The notes under the pieces: model-generated
What the model saw: the letters and a program-made list of their open reading frames with translations, nothing else
Databases searched by the model: none
Told to the model about the DNA's origin: nothing
Assembly: GCA_934402315.1 (NCBI GenBank)
Contig: CAKRTS010000012.1
Location: forward strand, 44,341 to 108,340
Reading direction: 5' to 3'
From: an uncultured Acetatifactor sp.
Lineage (GTDB): Bacteria > Bacillota > Clostridia > Lachnospirales > Lachnospiraceae
DNA: 64,000 nucleotides
Shown: positions 2,450 to 8,505 of the stretch, piece after piece
Layout: each line of letters begins with the position of its first letter
Numbering within the stretch: position 1 is the stretch's first letter
Made by a program: the position numbers and the translations under genes

Positions 2450-3364
2450 TTACTTTACGGTAATCAGTCCGACCTGTGCTGCTACCGCCTGACCCTCTTC
2501 GCCGAGGACATAGTCAAACCATGCGCGGACAAGCTCATTCTGTTCGGAAATCTCGCCCTTGGTTGCCATAACGAAGGGTCTGCTCAGGAAATAATTTCCG
2601 GCTTTGATATTCTCAGCTGTAGCCTCTACACCCTCCAGTGCCAGTGCGATCACGCTGTCGTCTACCACATCCAGGGAAACATAGCCGATTGCTCCGGGAG
2701 TGGATGCAACCTTTGCCATAACAGCGCCCGTGCTGTCAAGTTCATTTGCGTAAGCGCAGCTATCGATCACGTCAAGAAGCTCCTCGAAGGCTCCTCTGGT
2801 TCCGCTGCCTGCCTCACGTCCGACAACAATGATCGGTGCGTCTGCTCCGCCGACCTCAGACCAGTTTGTAATCGTGCCTGTGTAAATGTCTGTCAGCTGC
2901 TGCTTTGTAAGTCCTGTCACCGTGTTGGTCGGGTCTACGCACACTGCAATTCCGTCGATCGCGACAATGTTCTCCACCGCGCCGTTATTCTTCTCTTCAT
3001 CCTTGAGGTTTCTGGAAGAATTTCCGATGTCTGCGCTTCCGGAGGTAACTGCCTCGATACCTGCGCCGGAGCCTACAAATTCCGCTGTCACAGTCACATT
3101 GGGGTACTTCTCCATAAAGCTCTCCGCCAGAGCGTTTGCCAGCTTTTCCATGGACGTGCTGCCGACCATCTGGATGCTGCCAGACAGTTCCTTGCTGCCG
3201 CTTCCGATGCTATCCGTCTGCGTTCCGCCGGTTGTGCTCTGGGATGACTGATTCTGTGCATCGCTTGCCTGGCTGCTGTTTGATGCCGTATTTCCACAGC
3301 CTGTCATGCAGGCAGCTGCCAGTACACATGCGCTCAATAATGCGGCTAATTTCTTTGTTTTCAT
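2450..3364 (-). CDS. pstS: Phosphate-binding lipoprotein PstS
   Basis: Extracellular lipid-anchored phosphate receptor that feeds PstCA, 304 residues. The N-terminus MKTKKLAALL is followed by a hydrophobic stretch and the lipobox CMTGC. A Ser/Gln/Thr-rich linker follows, then the periplasmic-binding-protein fold with the phosphate-contact motifs GSTSMEKL, SADIGNSSR and GREAGSGTRGAFEEL. I chose ATG 3364 because GGAGG lies five to ten bases ahead; an ATG four codons upstream overlaps that ribosome-binding site. First gene of the pst operon, with a candidate Pho box about 90-130 bp upstream. Confidence 0.97.
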   Translation of the reverse strand: MKTKKLAALLSACVLAAACMTGCGNTASNSSQASDAQNQSSQSTTGGTQTDSIGSGSKELSGSIQMVGSTSMEKLANALAESFMEKYPNVTVTAEFVGSGAGIEAVTSGSADIGNSSRNLKDEEKNNGAVENIVAIDGIAVCVDPTNTVTGLTKQQLTDIYTGTITNWSEVGGADAPIIVVGREAGSGTRGAFEELLDVIDSCAYANELDSTGAVMAKVASTPGAIGYVSLDVVDDSVIALALEGVEATAENIKAGNYFLSRPFVMATKGEISEQNELVRAWFDYVLGEEGQAVAAQVGLITVK

Positions 3365-3452
3365 AATCTCCTCCATTTTCCGGGGCTTTTCTCTCCCCTT
3401 GACACTTCTTTCTTTGTCTTACGATGTTCATCTTAGCAGAGGGAAAAAGAAG

Positions 3453-3496: not shown

Positions 3497-4004
3497 TCAT
3501 CCGCCCCAGACCGTGGCGAGAATGCCGTCGGCGATCGCCCGTGCAATCTCATCAAAGCGCTCGTCAAAGAGCTGGTTATCCGCATCGGTGTTGATAAATC
3601 CGACTTCCACCAGAACGGCAGGCATCTCGGTCCGGTTCAGAACGACCAGATTTCTTCTTTCGTTCACGCCAAGGTTGGTAAAGCCGACCGCCTCCAGCCT
3701 TGTATTGATGTTATAGGCGAGGGTTGCCGCCCGACTGTAAAGGTTATAGACCAGAGTTTCCACCCCGGAATACTGATTCGGGTAGGGGCTGGAATTGCGG
3801 TGGATGGAGACAAAATAGTCCGCGCCGACAGCGTTTGCCTCCATCGCCTTCTGATAGGGGGACTCATAGATGTCTGTCGTCCGCGTGTAGTAGACATCCA
3901 CTCCGTTCGCCTCAAGAATCGATCCAATCGCCAGTACAAGCGCAAGCGCATCATCCTTCTCCTGACGTCCGTTGTATGTAGCGCCGGGATTTGCGCCGCC
4001 ATGA
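3497..4004 (-). pseudogene. N-acetylmuramoyl-L-alanine amidase, 3' part of interrupted gene
   Basis: Encodes residues 10 onward of a zinc amidase (Amidase_3 family) that cleaves the bond between MurNAc and the peptidoglycan stem peptide. Visible family motifs are HGGANPGA, GRQEKD (zinc-ligand Glu), VSIHRNS (zinc-ligand His) and VLVEVGFINT (catalytic Glu). The reading frame runs on upstream into element DNA and yields an unrelated leader beginning STSNYRKK from a TTG codon with no ribosome-binding site. The true start is 2.6 kb away at 6638. The codons for HGGA lie in the 15-bp repeat shared with that fragment. Joined, the two parts give a 177-residue amidase. In the present arrangement the gene is probably silent. 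Confidence 0.85.
3990..4004. repeat. Left attachment-site core of the recombinase element
   Basis: The 15-mer tttgcgccgccatga occurs here and again at 6598-6612 in the same orientation. It is the exact point where amidase homology stops on each side, so it marks the recombination core left by integration. Confidence 0.85.
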
Positions 4005-4054
4005 GTGGGCAGTTTTTTGCGGTAATTTGAGGTTGACAAAACAGCAATGGGATG

Positions 4055-4657
4055 TTATTCTCTAACAAAGGGAAGCGGTTTTTTACCACTCGTCTGACAT
4101 TCAGTCCTGAGTGGGGTACTCGCTTCTCTTTTTATGTCCACCAGATCATATAAGTACATCCTCCCATCCTTTGTGCAGTTAATCAACAGACACGCAGAGT
4201 AAATATGATACATCTCCGTCCTCTCCTCATTTTCAAAGACCGGAATTGCAAAACGTGTCTGATAATAATACCATCCCTTTCCCGCTCTCTCGGAATGCCT
4301 CTCCTTACGATTTTCGCAAAACTGTTCATTTGTTGCTATTTCCACCATTTGAAGGATTCCCTGTGCTGCATTCGCCTTTGCCTTAGCCCTCGCACCTTTC
4401 AGTCTTTTGGTATACTCGGATCCCTTGTATTCATCCGGGAGTTCCCTTCCGATATGGACAATCCTCTCTGTTTCCATAATTTTGACAATTTCTCCAACAT
4501 ATTGTTCCAGATAGCTCTCCACAGCATTCCAGTCAATATTCTGCTTGTTTCTAAACAGTATCTCCGGCAGAACCACTACCTTGTGCCCCGCCTGATCCTC
4601 CACAATCTGTATTTTCAATTTCTTTTTTCCCCTCTTTTTCTTCATAAAATTTATCAA
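4055..4657 (-). CDS. Element-borne protein of unknown function, resembling polyvalent-protein LPD3-like domain
   Basis: 200 residues from TTG 4657 (AGGGG six bases upstream), or 196 from ATG 4645. The N-terminus is very basic (MKKKRGKKKLK). The middle, VVLPEILFRNKQNIDWNAV and EYTKRLKGARAKAKANAAQG, and the end, GWYYYQTRFAIPVFENE followed by LYDLVDIKREASTPL, recall proteins I know from Clostridia near recombinases and the LPD3-type domain of polyvalent phage and plasmid proteins. That resemblance is from memory and not certain. No catalytic motif is evident. The start lies inside the recombinase 3' end (overlap about 107 bp, different frame), so the two are co-transcribed. Last gene of the element. 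Confidence 0.65.
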   Translation of the reverse strand: MINFMKKKRGKKKLKIQIVEDQAGHKVVVLPEILFRNKQNIDWNAVESYLEQYVGEIVKIMETERIVHIGRELPDEYKGSEYTKRLKGARAKAKANAAQGILQMVEIATNEQFCENRKERHSERAGKGWYYYQTRFAIPVFENEERTEMYHIYSACLLINCTKDGRMYLYDLVDIKREASTPLRTECQTSGKKPLPFVRE

Positions 4658-6200
4658 ACGCTTCCCCTGACTCTCCCGAGAATTTGTAACAGATCACAAT
4701 TCTTCTATCCTCATATATTCTGATTTCCCGAATCATTTCAATGACGGTTTCCCTGTCAAGCCGCTCCACATCCTTCGTTTCCAACAATCGCCTGATCCAC
4801 GGGATACGAAAGACCTCCGTTTCATCTGCCATTTCCCTCTCCTGCATAGCCTTCATCTGCATGAACAATAATGTTTCTTTTTTTACATAATCCTGCCTAT
4901 ACGCAGCGAATTCCTCTCTGGAAATCAGATTCTCTTTATAATCCTCATAGAGCTCCTTTTTACGTTTTTGAAGCTTTTTCCTCTCCGCCTCTATCCTTTG
5001 TCTCTCGAATTCACCCTTTCTTCTTTCACTGCCTCTTGCCCCCTGTTCCGTAACCAGTTGTTCCAAATCGTTTGTATTTTCCAAAATAACCCGCAGATCA
5101 GCGCTGACAACCGTCTCAAAAACGTCACCGGAAACTTTGTGCGGAGTACAATACCGTTTCCCACAGCGGACATAGGTTCCGCAGTAATAATCATTGTCTT
5201 TCTTCACCATAGCCCTCCCGCAGTCGCCGCACTTTACCAGTCCCGCGAAAATATTTGCGGGTGTGCGAAAATCAAGCTGCCTTGTTCTACGCTGTAGAAG
5301 CTCCTGGGTTTTTTCCCATATCTCTGCCGTAACAATCGCGTCATGTGTTCCCTCGACAACAATCCACTCATCACAGCCTTTTACTCTGGCCTTGCCCCGC
5401 ATGCGCTGGCTTTTTTTACCTTGTACCATATTTCCGGCATACATTTCATTGTGGAGAATCCGGTTGACTGTTGAATAAGTCCAGTAAGAAGTGTTTTCTA
5501 ATCGATTGGAGTTTCTATAGTTCGCCCCGCCCAGCCTCTTATACTCGGACGGACAGACAATTCCCTCCCCATTGAGAATATTTGCAATGCTCTGCTTTCC
5601 GCAGCCTTTGAGATATAGTTCAAAAATTCTTCGGACAACTGCGGCCGCATAGTCATCGACCACCAGTCTGTTCTTATCGCCGGAAGCCTTTTGATACCCA
5701 TAAGACGCAAATGCCCCTATAAACTCCCCCGCCTCCTGCTTAGCCCGGAGAGATGCATGAATCTTATCGGATATATCCCTTGCATACTGCTCGTTGAATA
5801 TATTCTTGATCGGCAGAAGAATATCATACGCCTTCTGGGCGCTGTCTATGTTATCCGTGATGGAAATAAACCTTACACCCTTGTCCGGGAAATAGCGTTC
5901 CAGATACTTTCCGGTTTCAATATAGTCGCGCCCAAAGCGGGACAAATCCTTCACGATCACACAGTTGACTCTTCCCGCCTCGACATCTCTGATCATACGC
6001 TGAAAGGACGGGCGCTTAAAATTTGTACCCGAAAAGCCATCATCCACATAAACGTCATACACTGTAAATTCCTCTTTTGATTTCAAGTAACCTTCTATCA
6101 GCTTTTTCTGATTTCCGATGCTGTCACTCTCCGCCTTGTCCCCATCTTCTCTTGACAATCTGACATATTCCGCCACATAAAAGCACGCTTGCCCCCTCAT
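4551..6200 (-). CDS. Large serine recombinase (integrase/excisionase)
   Basis: Site-specific recombinase of 549 residues that probably integrated, and could excise, the surrounding element. The resolvase-type catalytic domain starts at once: YVRLSRED with nucleophile Ser16, then DDGFSGTNFKRPSFQRM and KDLSRFGRDYIETG carrying the active-site arginines. A Recombinase domain follows (YGYQKASGDKNRL...STVNRILHNEMYAGN), then a zinc ribbon (CGDCGRAMV...YYCGTYVRCGKRYC) and a long charged coiled coil (RQRIEAERKKLQKRKKELYEDYKE), as in large serine integrases. ATG 6200 overlaps the stop of the preceding small gene as ATGA, which favours it over the TTG seven codons upstream. All catalytic residues I can check are present. 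Confidence 0.95.
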   Translation of the reverse strand: MRGQACFYVAEYVRLSREDGDKAESDSIGNQKKLIEGYLKSKEEFTVYDVYVDDGFSGTNFKRPSFQRMIRDVEAGRVNCVIVKDLSRFGRDYIETGKYLERYFPDKGVRFISITDNIDSAQKAYDILLPIKNIFNEQYARDISDKIHASLRAKQEAGEFIGAFASYGYQKASGDKNRLVVDDYAAAVVRRIFELYLKGCGKQSIANILNGEGIVCPSEYKRLGGANYRNSNRLENTSYWTYSTVNRILHNEMYAGNMVQGKKSQRMRGKARVKGCDEWIVVEGTHDAIVTAEIWEKTQELLQRRTRQLDFRTPANIFAGLVKCGDCGRAMVKKDNDYYCGTYVRCGKRYCTPHKVSGDVFETVVSADLRVILENTNDLEQLVTEQGARGSERRKGEFERQRIEAERKKLQKRKKELYEDYKENLISREEFAAYRQDYVKKETLLFMQMKAMQEREMADETEVFRIPWIRRLLETKDVERLDRETVIEMIREIRIYEDRRIVICYKFSGESGEAFDKFYEEKEGKKEIENTDCGGSGGAQGSGSAGDTV

Positions 6201-6361
6201 GTTTCTCTCATTCCTCCGCAAAATACAGTCATGGATTTCTGAATCTCCGGAGTACTTTCTATATGTATTCTGATAATGCGTTCCACAAATTCTGTCGTGC
6301 TCTCCTTTCCTAAAAAAATGCGCTCCAGCTCATACCTCGCTGCTAACCGCTTCTTATTCAT
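6197..6361 (-). CDS. Small 54-residue element protein, SHOCT-like; possible recombination accessory factor
   Basis: Begins MNKKRLAARYELERIFLGKE and is followed by an amphipathic helix (TTEFVERIIRIHIES). Its stop overlaps the recombinase ATG as ATGA. Small basic or helical proteins with a similar ARYELERIF...EF stretch are common immediately upstream of serine recombinases in Firmicutes. Because large serine integrases need a small directionality factor for excision, this is the only candidate for that role in the element, but that is inference from position only. An in-frame TTG seven codons upstream is a weaker start. Confidence 0.6.
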   Translation of the reverse strand: MNKKRLAARYELERIFLGKESTTEFVERIIRIHIESTPEIQKSMTVFCGGMRET

Positions 6362-6542
6362 AAGACTGTAGACTCTCCGCAATGCTCATCCTTAAAGACA
6401 ATATACTGTCCACAATTTGTACAATATGTATAGCCGGAATTACTGATATAACCGTCTTAAACGTTCCAATTCAGGGGATCAACTATCAGAATGATAAAGA
6501 TGTCAATTCTCAGAAAACGAGGGAAGCTATCCCTTTGATACG

Positions 6543-6638
6543 CTAATTATACCCGACCGCATAATATTTTTCAATACGGTAATTTATTTTCCGCAACTTT
6601 GCGCCGCCATGACCGGCATCAAGTGCTACAAGTGCCAT
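6543..6638 (-). pseudogene. N-acetylmuramoyl-L-alanine amidase, 5' part of interrupted gene
   Basis: ATG 6638 begins MALVALDAGHGGA, the classical start of Amidase_3 enzymes with the first zinc-ligand His. After codon 13 homology ends at the 15-bp repeat, and 18 element-encoded residues follow to a TAG at 6543. A strong GGGAGG lies nine to fourteen bases before the ATG, so this is the authentic start of the gene whose remainder is at 3497-4004. As it stands it would yield a 31-residue peptide with no enzymatic function. Confidence 0.85.
6598..6612. repeat. Right attachment-site core of the recombinase element
   Basis: Second copy of the 15-mer described at 3990-4004. It encodes the His-Gly-Gly zinc-ligand segment of the amidase, so either junction keeps those codons. 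Confidence 0.85.
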
Positions 6639-6644
6639 ATAAAA

Positions 6645-6685
6645 AGACCTCCCACATAACTTTCTATAAGCTATGCGGAAGGTCT
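6645..6685 (-). terminator. Intrinsic terminator after ABC exporter; its 3' arm holds the amidase ribosome-binding site
   Basis: On the minus strand AGACCTTCCGCATA pairs with TATGTGGGAGGTCT, allowing three G-U pairs, around a short loop. The stem is followed directly by TTTTTAT. The GGGAGG used to start the amidase is in the 3' arm and the U-tract forms the spacer to its ATG. Confidence 0.75.
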
Positions 6686-6738
6686 GGTTCTGTGTCTGTC
6701 CTGTTACTGTTTTTGATTTTATGTCTGAACGATGCTTG

Positions 6739-8505
6739 TCAGACTGCGAACTGGCTGTTGTACAGGTTTGCGTAGAAGCCGCCCTTTGCCAGAAGCGTCT
6801 CATGGCTGCCCTGCTCAATGATATTGCCGTCCTTCATGACGAGAATGATGTCCGCCTCCTGGATGGTTGACAGTCTGTGCGCCACGATAAAGCTGGTTCT
6901 GCCCTCCATCATGGTTGCGAACGCATTCTGAATCTTTAACTCGGTTCTGGTATCGATGGACGAGGTCGCCTCATCCAGAATCAGCATCGGCGGCAGACAG
7001 AGCATCACGCGTGCGATACAGAGCAGCTGCTTCTGTCCCTGCGAAAGACTTCCTCCGTCCTCCGTGATTACCGTGTTATACCCTTCCGGCAGCCGCTTGA
7101 TAAAGCTGTGCGCATGTGCCGACTTTGCAGCCGCGATCACCTCTTCATCGGTTGCATCCGGCTTGCCCATGCAGATATTGTCGCGTATCGTTCCGGCTCT
7201 CAGCCATGTCTCCTGAAGCACCATGCCGTAGCTGGTGCGCAGGCTGCCTCTTGTCAGATGGCAGATGTCGTTTCCGTCAACCGAGATCCTGCCGCTGTTT
7301 ACATCATAGAAGCGCATCAGAAGGTTAATCAGCGTTGTCTTTCCGCAGCCGGTAGGCCCCACGATGGCAACCCTCTGTCCCGGCTTTACCTCCAGATTGA
7401 AATCCTCGATCAGCTTCTTGTCCGGCACATAGCTGAAGTAAACGTTTTCAAGCTTTACATTGCCCTTTGCGTGCTCAAGCACCTTCGCATCCTCTGCATC
7501 CGGCACCTGCGGCTCCTCGTCGATCAGTTCAAAGATCCGCGCCGCGCAGGCAAGCGCATTCTGCAGCTCCGTCACAACGCCGGAAATCTCGTTGAAGGGC
7601 TTTGTGTACTGGTTTGCGTAGCTTAAGAAGCAGGACAGGCGGCCTACGCTGATACCGCCGCGGATCGCCACGAACGCTCCGAAAATTCCCACGCCCGCAT
7701 ACACAAGGCTGTTGACAAATCTCGTACAGGGGTTCGTCAGCGAAGAGAAAAAGATCGCCTTGAGGGAACACTTTTCCAGTCTTCCGTTAATTTCCGCGAA
7801 CTGCTCCCTGACCGCCGTCTCCCGTGAAAAGGTCTTTACCACCTTCTGGTTGCCGATCATCTCCTCGATCAGCGAGGTCTGCTCTCCCCTTGTCTCGGAC
7901 TGCAGCTTGAACATCGAATAGGTTCTCGTCGCAATAAACTTTGCCACGAGGAAGGATACCGGCGTGATACATATGACCACCAATGCAATAGGAACGTTGG
8001 TGACAAGCATGAAGATCAGCGTGCCGATGATGGTTAAAACACCGGTGAACAGCTGCGTAAAGCCCATCAGCAGACCGTCCGCAAAGGTGTCTACATCCGC
8101 GATGACACGGCTCACAATATCTCCGTAGGCATGCGCATCCAGATACTTCAACGGCAGAATCTCCAGTCTGCGGAACGCATCCTCCCGGATGTCCTTGACA
8201 ACATGGTAGGTAATATGGTTATTGCAGGTGTTCATGACCCACTGCGCTATAGCCGTGGCTAAGATCGCAATGCCGATCTTTTTCATGATTGCAAATACCG
8301 CGGTAAAGTCCACCGCGCCTTTTCCGAGAAGAAGATCGACGGCATCTCCGGTAAGGATCGGCACATACAGCGTGAGCACGACCGTCACCGCCGCCAGCAG
8401 AAGCGAGAGTCCGACCAGCAGCCAGTATTTCCGGATGTAATTCAAAACCTTTTTCATCGTTGCCATCTGCCCCGATCTCTTATTCTTTGTCTCCAGATCA
8501 GCCAT
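6739..8505 (-). CDS. ABC exporter half-transporter, catalytically complete subunit of a heterodimer
   Basis: 588 residues: a six-helix exporter membrane domain (residues about 25-320) followed by an ATPase domain with Walker A GPTGCGKTT, Walker B MLILDEATS and switch His in IVAHRLST. The signature is LSQGQ instead of LSGGQ. Together with its partner this fits the asymmetric heterodimeric multidrug or peptide exporters (BmrCD or TM287/288 type), in which the altered signature contributes to the degenerate ATP site. It overlaps the upstream partner by 8 bp and starts with GGGAGG ahead of ATG 8505. Substrate cannot be read from sequence; a drug, lipid or peptide are all possible. Confidence 0.93.
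   Translation of the reverse strand: MADLETKNKRSGQMATMKKVLNYIRKYWLLVGLSLLLAAVTVVLTLYVPILTGDAVDLLLGKGAVDFTAVFAIMKKIGIAILATAIAQWVMNTCNNHITYHVVKDIREDAFRRLEILPLKYLDAHAYGDIVSRVIADVDTFADGLLMGFTQLFTGVLTIIGTLIFMLVTNVPIALVVICITPVSFLVAKFIATRTYSMFKLQSETRGEQTSLIEEMIGNQKVVKTFSRETAVREQFAEINGRLEKCSLKAIFFSSLTNPCTRFVNSLVYAGVGIFGAFVAIRGGISVGRLSCFLSYANQYTKPFNEISGVVTELQNALACAARIFELIDEEPQVPDAEDAKVLEHAKGNVKLENVYFSYVPDKKLIEDFNLEVKPGQRVAIVGPTGCGKTTLINLLMRFYDVNSGRISVDGNDICHLTRGSLRTSYGMVLQETWLRAGTIRDNICMGKPDATDEEVIAAAKSAHAHSFIKRLPEGYNTVITEDGGSLSQGQKQLLCIARVMLCLPPMLILDEATSSIDTRTELKIQNAFATMMEGRTSFIVAHRLSTIQEADIILVMKDGNIIEQGSHETLLAKGGFYANLYNSQFAV

Follow-up and report, generated by a model that had tools for sequence, protein, structure and literature searches.

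Intervening elements are known from several sporulation genes, namely sigK, spsM, spoVFB, spoVR, gerE, and yabG (PMC10747680, PMC4191935, PMC5595907). As described for skinCd, which splits sigK of C. difficile, the recombinase gene is driven by sigma-A and a factor under the control of sigma-E and SpoIIID confines excision to the mother cell (PMC5025042). More generally, a survey of large serine recombinases reports conserved coding sequences as their targets (PMC10083194). Here we analyzed a stretch of 64,000 nucleotides from an uncultured Acetatifactor sp. of the Lachnospiraceae (GenBank assembly GCA_934402315.1, contig CAKRTS010000012.1, positions 44,341 to 108,340; hereafter the window), in which an Amidase_3 gene on the minus strand is cut at a His codon by a 2,608-bp element carrying a large serine recombinase gene. 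We consider it likely that this is a minimal skin-type intervening element in a sporulation amidase gene, which would be excised in the mother cell. Loci, genomes, contigs, and proteins used for comparison are given by L, G, C, and P numbers.

The 3' piece of the gene alone matches PF01520 (E 8.4e-40), the sole domain found in it, and recombinase domains lie between the two halves, in agreement with a preliminary description of the locus as an amidase gene split by a serine-recombinase element. The split codon encodes a His that we take to be a zinc ligand of the amidase family. When one copy of the flanking repeat and the interior were deleted in silico, an unbroken 177-residue amidase frame resulted; the frame at the empty site was checked and is correct, just as the preliminary description had stated. 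The exact 15-bp repeat at both ends (TCATGGCGGCGCAAA, minus strand) has no third exact copy on either strand of the window. Repeated 15-mers as such are not rare, 164 different ones being found at least twice on its plus strand; this one gains its weight from its position at the two breakpoints of a single gene and from the same layout in related loci. The restored protein ends at 177 residues without a C-terminal SPOR domain and scores 80.8 bits against the CwlD family TIGR02883, below the NCBIfam cut-off of 221.55. Uninterrupted amidases of 98% identity are present in sequence archives (P0121-P0123). Furthermore, an Acetatifactor-type metagenome-assembled genome (MAG; L083, the genome of L015) has a whole amidase at the syntenic locus, flanked by relatives of the ABC transporter (86% identity over 311 residues) and the PstS-like protein (55%) that neighbor the split gene, and in L103 a whole amidase is preceded, at a distance of about 1 kb, by a relative of the ABC transporter. 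Thus, the search for an intact ortholog in related genomes, proposed earlier as a check, had a positive outcome.

The host gene has the distribution and the promoter of a sporulation gene. Within the family of G004 (locus L004: Lachnospiraceae), 397 genomes were scanned; the amidase was detected in 207 at a cut-off of E <= 1e-45 and SpoIVA exceeded its cut-off in 256. SpoIVA was present in 203 of the 207 genomes with the amidase versus 53 of the 190 without it (Fisher p 7e-56, which is overstated because species were counted as independent). Close recombinase relatives (E <= 1e-140) were found in 23 of the 397 genomes, and all 23 have SpoIVA. At least nine of the 207 amidases begin at the His without a preceding DxG (G004, G322, G016, G214, G014, G018, G274, G050, and G113). 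For promoter analysis, we collected 29 amidase upstream regions, comprising the window and 28 of 29 new best-match loci (L126 was removed, being itself a split copy). The motif AC-N16/17-CATANNNTA, which presumably corresponds to the sigma-K consensus, was found within 90 bases in 17 of these 29 regions, compared with 1 of 65 control regions upstream of other open reading frames (ORFs) of at least 150 aa from the same loci, which are not confirmed genes, and with 0.08 on average (maximum 2) in 200 dinucleotide shuffles. In split cwlC-like 5' parts, the window included, the -10 motif CATANNNT lies upstream in 8/8 and the full motif in 4/8, so that the promoter of the split copies seems to be maintained; CATANNNT is also found in 12 of the 65 controls. 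The relatives in L053 and L037 carry Amidase_3 together with SPOR. By phylogenetic profile and promoter, the amidase looks sporulation-specific.

These properties bear on the proposal that the element turns the amidase ON and OFF stochastically in growing cells, independently of development. The geometry is that of reversible site-specific recombination, the recombinase gene has a sigma-A-type promoter, and titles in the reference list of PMC3783163 present TnpX as the sole transposon protein required and TndX as required and sufficient, i.e., as acting without other transposon proteins. However, with an amidase of sporulation-type distribution and promoter, switching in growing cells would matter little. 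We regard this account as highly improbable, and the reversible switch of a cell-wall hydrolase suggested in the preliminary description gained no support.

The split recurs in related genomes. A recombinase alignment was scanned over species-representative genomes, and the best 80 of 282 relatives were taken as loci, 32 of which gave an amidase match with a hidden Markov model. Ends were examined at 30 loci and in the window (this set excludes L038 and L039, which are on the other strand), and in 31/31 the frame before HGG is foreign and without DxG. A left-end pattern demanding TTGCG yielded 10 left ends, and a less strict inspection of 14 loci supplied L006, L016, L035, L044, L048, L059, and L233. 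The resulting 17 elements with both ends, the window's among them, measure 1,647-9,177 bp, and joining their ends gives a full-length amidase frame in every case. The smallest (L233, G123:C17), with 1,647 bp between His codons, consists almost wholly of the recombinase gene. The two ends have 2 to 15 bp in common, a stretch that contains the His-codon CA in 17/17; the 15-bp flanking repeat noted earlier is longer than the functional core. In the reconstructed attP sites (n = 10), CGCAA to the left of CA faces TTGCG to the right in eight, L037 and L040 having no exact CGCAA; here the TTGCG side is guaranteed by the search pattern. Such symmetry would be expected of a large serine recombinase with CA as the crossover dinucleotide.

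Target genes were assigned along a midpoint-rooted maximum-likelihood tree of 80 recombinases (the window and 79 of the 80 loci, L033 being left out for its length). A branch with support 99/93 separates 50 rows, among them all 33 with an amidase locus, from the other 30, none of which has one. TIGR02883 (CwlD) was the best family for 8 of 10 scanned 3' parts, at 165-214 bits with the N-terminus missing (cut-off 221.55), and the remaining two (L021 and L053) scored 75-79 bits. The labels cwlC-like (C) and cwlD (D) on the tree were assigned by us, 8 of the 13 D rows having been scanned, and with these labels the target gene type switches often inside the clade. Nine of the clade's other 17 rows lie at pdaB-type genes. 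L002, L007, L009, L011, L028, L030, and L064 adjoin a frame ending in the deacetylase motif FDAA(WG), and L032 and L036 adjoin a pdaB-type 3' part with TIGR02764 (PdaB) as the best family (E 4e-60 and 7e-36). The assignment of the 5' halves rests on the motif because their profile scores are weak (PdaB E 0.05-0.2 in three of the four scanned, and no match for L002). Among the rest, L012 shows a cwlD-type left end, L005 has a pdaB-type 3' half without a clear end, and no target was assigned to L013, L014, L026, L029, L031, and L065. One genome, G474, carries two splits, in cwlD (L077) and in a pdaB-type gene (L030). Cultured strains are among the carriers, for example Lachnospiraceae bacterium 10-1 (L017, split in cwlD) and Blautia sp. 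An249 (L018, split in a cwlC-like gene).

The split genes of the relatives are under long-term purifying selection. Five collinear species pairs are split at the same codon, and the dN/dS ratios (nonsynonymous to synonymous divergence) of their amidase 3' parts are 0.022 (L053/L061), 0.027 (L017/L077), 0.047 (L038/L039), 0.116 (L066/L233), and 0.213 (L035/L059). In L053/L061 (Blautia and a Lachnospiraceae MAG), the elements of 1,987 and 1,937 bp lie in collinear DNA of 79-85% identity, and dS is 1.08 for the recombinases, 0.61-1.24 for flanking genes, and 0.57 for the amidase 3' part, whose dN is 0.013. The cwlD elements of L017/L077 (6,058 and 6,089 bp) lie in loci collinear over 17.7 kb at 86% identity, with dS of 0.54-0.70 for the element genes, inside the flank range of 0.13-0.88. 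In these two best pairs the element genes are about as diverged as the flanks. In L053/L061, L017/L077, and L035/L059, each member has both gene parts. Among 37 split copies other than the window's (L039 and L145 are identical and probably represent one genome), all 3' parts are open over 165-370 codons, and 23 lack any ATG, GTG, or TTG from the upstream stop to the His, those of L061, L017, and L077 included. Since these 23 copies have no standard start before the His, expression of their conserved 3' part would be difficult unless the element is excised. Most simply, an intact gene would have been restored in some cells over the whole history of these lineages. A comparable signal could come from loss and reacquisition of the element within species, which likewise calls for precise excision.

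The same counts speak to the idea that the 3' part is translated from a start codon in the element end, the gene being re-promoted rather than broken. An in-frame TTG is present in the window, and the predicted proteins P0151 (63 members) and P0176 join a new N-terminus to HGG. Against this stand the 23 copies without a start codon, which include members of the two most strongly conserved pairs, and the first strand of the fold, which would be missing from such a product. We give this reading hardly any credence. P0151 and P0176, which are from other species, start with unrelated residues before joining at HGG and look like split alleles that were called as genes.

Several observations weigh against excision of a skin-type element. 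The dN/dS ratio of L035/L059 is at the high end of its neighbors' range (0.04-0.22), and the amidase 5' part is missing from L038 and L039, and from L066 though present in L233. Selection was measured in pairs of relatives rather than in the window's own lineage, whose nearest recombinases are P0001-P0003. In the split cwlC-like copy of G214 (L148; L231 = G214:C59), the recombinase is frameshifted, so this copy, possibly a fixed one or an assembly error, may not excise. The pair L010/L148 did not fit and was set aside; its elements are more alike (93%) than its flanks (85%), a pattern that is not vertical. An amidase match lies in the short (about 1.5-kb) flanks of only 10 of the 23 recombinase relatives, and elements are also found in the unclassified amidases of L021, L023, and L027. 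The window element has no clear mother-cell promoter, the recombinase gene having a sigma-A consensus instead, and we identified no directionality factor within it. Finally, L020-L023, from Hominisplanchenecus, an Erysipelotrichaceae isolate, Blautia, and Thomasclavelia, have near-identical right ends and recombinases, each time in another amidase gene and always at the same His codon, which indicates recent horizontal spread across families.

This last observation would suit a simple mobile element whose attB is a conserved catalytic motif and whose insertion inactivates the amidase, its carriers losing the function or having acquired it recently. Many large serine recombinases likewise target one conserved gene (PMC10083194), and intact proteins of 98% identity exist beside the window allele, from which the window insertion may be young. 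Against it, the split 3' part is conserved in five collinear pairs (dN/dS 0.02-0.21) and open in 37/37 copies, and the recombinase-bearing genomes retain SpoIVA (23/23); we find this account unlikely, though well ahead of a switch in growing cells. The simple parasite of the preliminary description is accordingly disfavored for the family by the dN/dS of the relatives; for the window copy itself it may still apply. The skin-type parallel, which had been drawn there as well, is the best supported of the options by virtue of the SpoIVA profile, the sigma-K-type promoter, and the purifying selection in relatives.

Under the skin-type reading, an element consisting of little beyond a TnpX-like recombinase would have entered the catalytic His codon of a sporulation-specific, CwlC-like amidase gene through recombination of attP with attB. 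The recombinase would excise it precisely between attL and attR, above all in the terminal mother cell, where late, sigma-K-dependent expression of the amidase would take place. Excision there would make the gene whole when it is needed while the spore chromosome keeps the element, as in the logic of skin. The geometry of the locus, its recurrence, and its conservation are seen in the sequences, whereas excision by the recombinase is inferred and may be confined to the mother cell. As for the family, we lean towards the view that very small developmental DNA-rearrangement elements (1.6-2.8 kb at minimum) are widespread in gut Lachnospiraceae, that one clade splits cwlC-like, cwlD, and pdaB genes, the amidases at the catalytic His, that some copies are inherited through speciation and removed in the mother cell, and that some genomes have more than one split spore gene.

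The element itself has a G + C content of 0.44, against 0.51 for the window, and contains three ORFs (Table 1). Among proteins of solved structure, TnpX is the best match to the recombinase (2mhc; E 7e-30 over query residues 10-121). Two further ORFs had been overlooked in the preliminary description, which had credited the small element with almost no cargo. Neither has a Pfam match, nor a PHROG match below E 0.1. The 54-aa ORF has no Pfam match up to E 1, no PHROG match, and one weak NCBIfam match (E 0.029), and is a candidate directionality factor by position only. ORF2 has 451 homologs, none of the 120 listed having a Pfam domain, and its predicted model (pLDDT, the predicted local distance difference test, 78.8) gave no convincing fold match. 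No Pfam match to a mobilization gene was found among the three ORFs, and Pfam and PHROG scans recognized no phage gene in the element besides the recombinase. A recombinase of 98% identity (P0001) lies on a contig of 2,646 bp, near the element's own size. Related elements carry various cargo: a Phd/ParE-like toxin-antitoxin pair (L018:9050-9620, the antitoxin half judged by eye); CotH-kinase, VTC-domain, and DUF4956 genes in the 6-kb cwlD element (L017:5556-9325, with collinear counterparts in L077); an HD-domain protein (L008:8281-9735); and a large glycoside hydrolase-like protein (L037:11656-14349). In L232:4660-4720 (G005:C55), a near-perfect palindrome with attP-like arms around CA lies between a recombinase and host-like genes.

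Table 1. Coordinates of the split amidase locus and its neighbors in the window
Feature	Position	Strand	Remarks
Amidase 5' part	6612..6638	-	nine codons, MALVALDAG, up to the His codon
Amidase 3' part	3497..4003	-	His codon (HGGANPG...) to stop; PF01520
Intervening element	4004..6611	-	2,608 bp, measured between two CA dinucleotides
Left direct-repeat copy, 15 bp (attL core)	6598..6612	-	exact repeat TCATGGCGGCGCAAA
Right direct-repeat copy, 15 bp (attR core)	3990..4004	-	exact repeat TCATGGCGGCGCAAA
TTGCG arm of putative attP	6592..6596	-	10 bases after CATGG; from sequence
CGCAA arm of putative attP	4017..4021	-	13 bases before CA; from sequence
Sigma-K-type promoter AC-N16-CATAGCTTA	6667..6693	-	upstream of amidase start; motif match
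Sigma-A consensus TTGAAA-N17-TATAAT	6546..6574	-	just inside the left end, reading towards the recombinase and the two ORFs
54-aa ORF	6197..6361	-	overlaps recombinase start; similar-looking short ORFs precede the recombinase in L008, L010, and L037
TnpX-like large serine recombinase, 549 aa from ATG	4551..6200	-	PF00239, PF07508, PF13408 (Resolvase, Recombinase, Zn-ribbon)
ORF2, conserved hypothetical, 196 aa	4055..4645	-	overlaps recombinase end; 451 homologs
Upstream neighbor, ABC transporter	6739..8505	-	relatives upstream of whole orthologs in L083 and L103
Downstream neighbor, PstS-like protein	2450..3376	-	relative downstream of whole ortholog in L083

In bacteria, a few sporulation genes are known from which DNA is removed in a programmed way in a terminal cell line, most of them interrupted by prophages. 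In the present case the split recurs, is associated with one recombinase clade, affects three spore cell-wall genes, and takes as little as 1.65 kb (L233). Such elements would be minimal systems in which to study what restricts excision to the mother cell, and they offer natural recombinases with a putative core dinucleotide. In addition, gene callers may report as broken some spore genes of gut commensals that are in fact functional, which bears on the correctness of asporogenous calls from metagenome assemblies.

Our literature search turned up no intervening element with an amidase or pdaB target; words starting with "cwl" are absent from the main text of PMC10747680 and PMC4191935, and "amidase" is absent from the main text of PMC10083194, supplements aside. 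The elements yin in yabG, vfbin in spoVFB, vrin in spoVR, and SPbeta in spsM also intervene in sporulation genes, but they are prophages or prophage-like and have other targets (PMC10747680, PMC4191935). Closer in kind is gin in gerE of B. cereus, which is non-phage, is excised by serine recombination from a mother-cell gene, and has a short core of 9 bp; it differs in its size of 28.6 kb, its three recombinases and GirX, and the demonstration of excision in vivo and in vitro (PMC5595907). From gin it follows that prophage-like content is not required of a skin-type element. The window recombinase has TnpX of Tn4451 as its closest solved relative, whereas the element has no gene recognized as a mobilization or resistance gene, and the clade of its recombinase has a fixed target codon in amidases. 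The amidase resembles CwlC of Bacillus, which is made up of Amidase_3 and SPOR, and CwlV (1jwq) in its Amidase_3 domain, its sigma-K-type promoter, and the SPOR domain of its relatives; the window protein differs in being 177 aa long without SPOR.

The nearest parallels are skin of Bacillus and skinCd, both in sigK, in which an element with a large serine recombinase likewise lies inside a late mother-cell gene. There, precise excision restoring the gene is proven experimentally (PMC5025042); here the restorable frame is read from the sequence. Skin and skinCd are prophage-like and larger, skinCd having 19 genes and the directionality factor CD1234 (PMC5025042), while the window element has 2.6 kb, no recognized phage gene besides the recombinase, no known directionality factor, and an amidase gene as its target. 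The recombinase of skinCd has a sigma-A promoter (PMC5025042), as the window promoter also suggests, which fits the first half of the C. difficile scheme, the second half being missing here. As far as the sequence goes, the element appears to work like skin.

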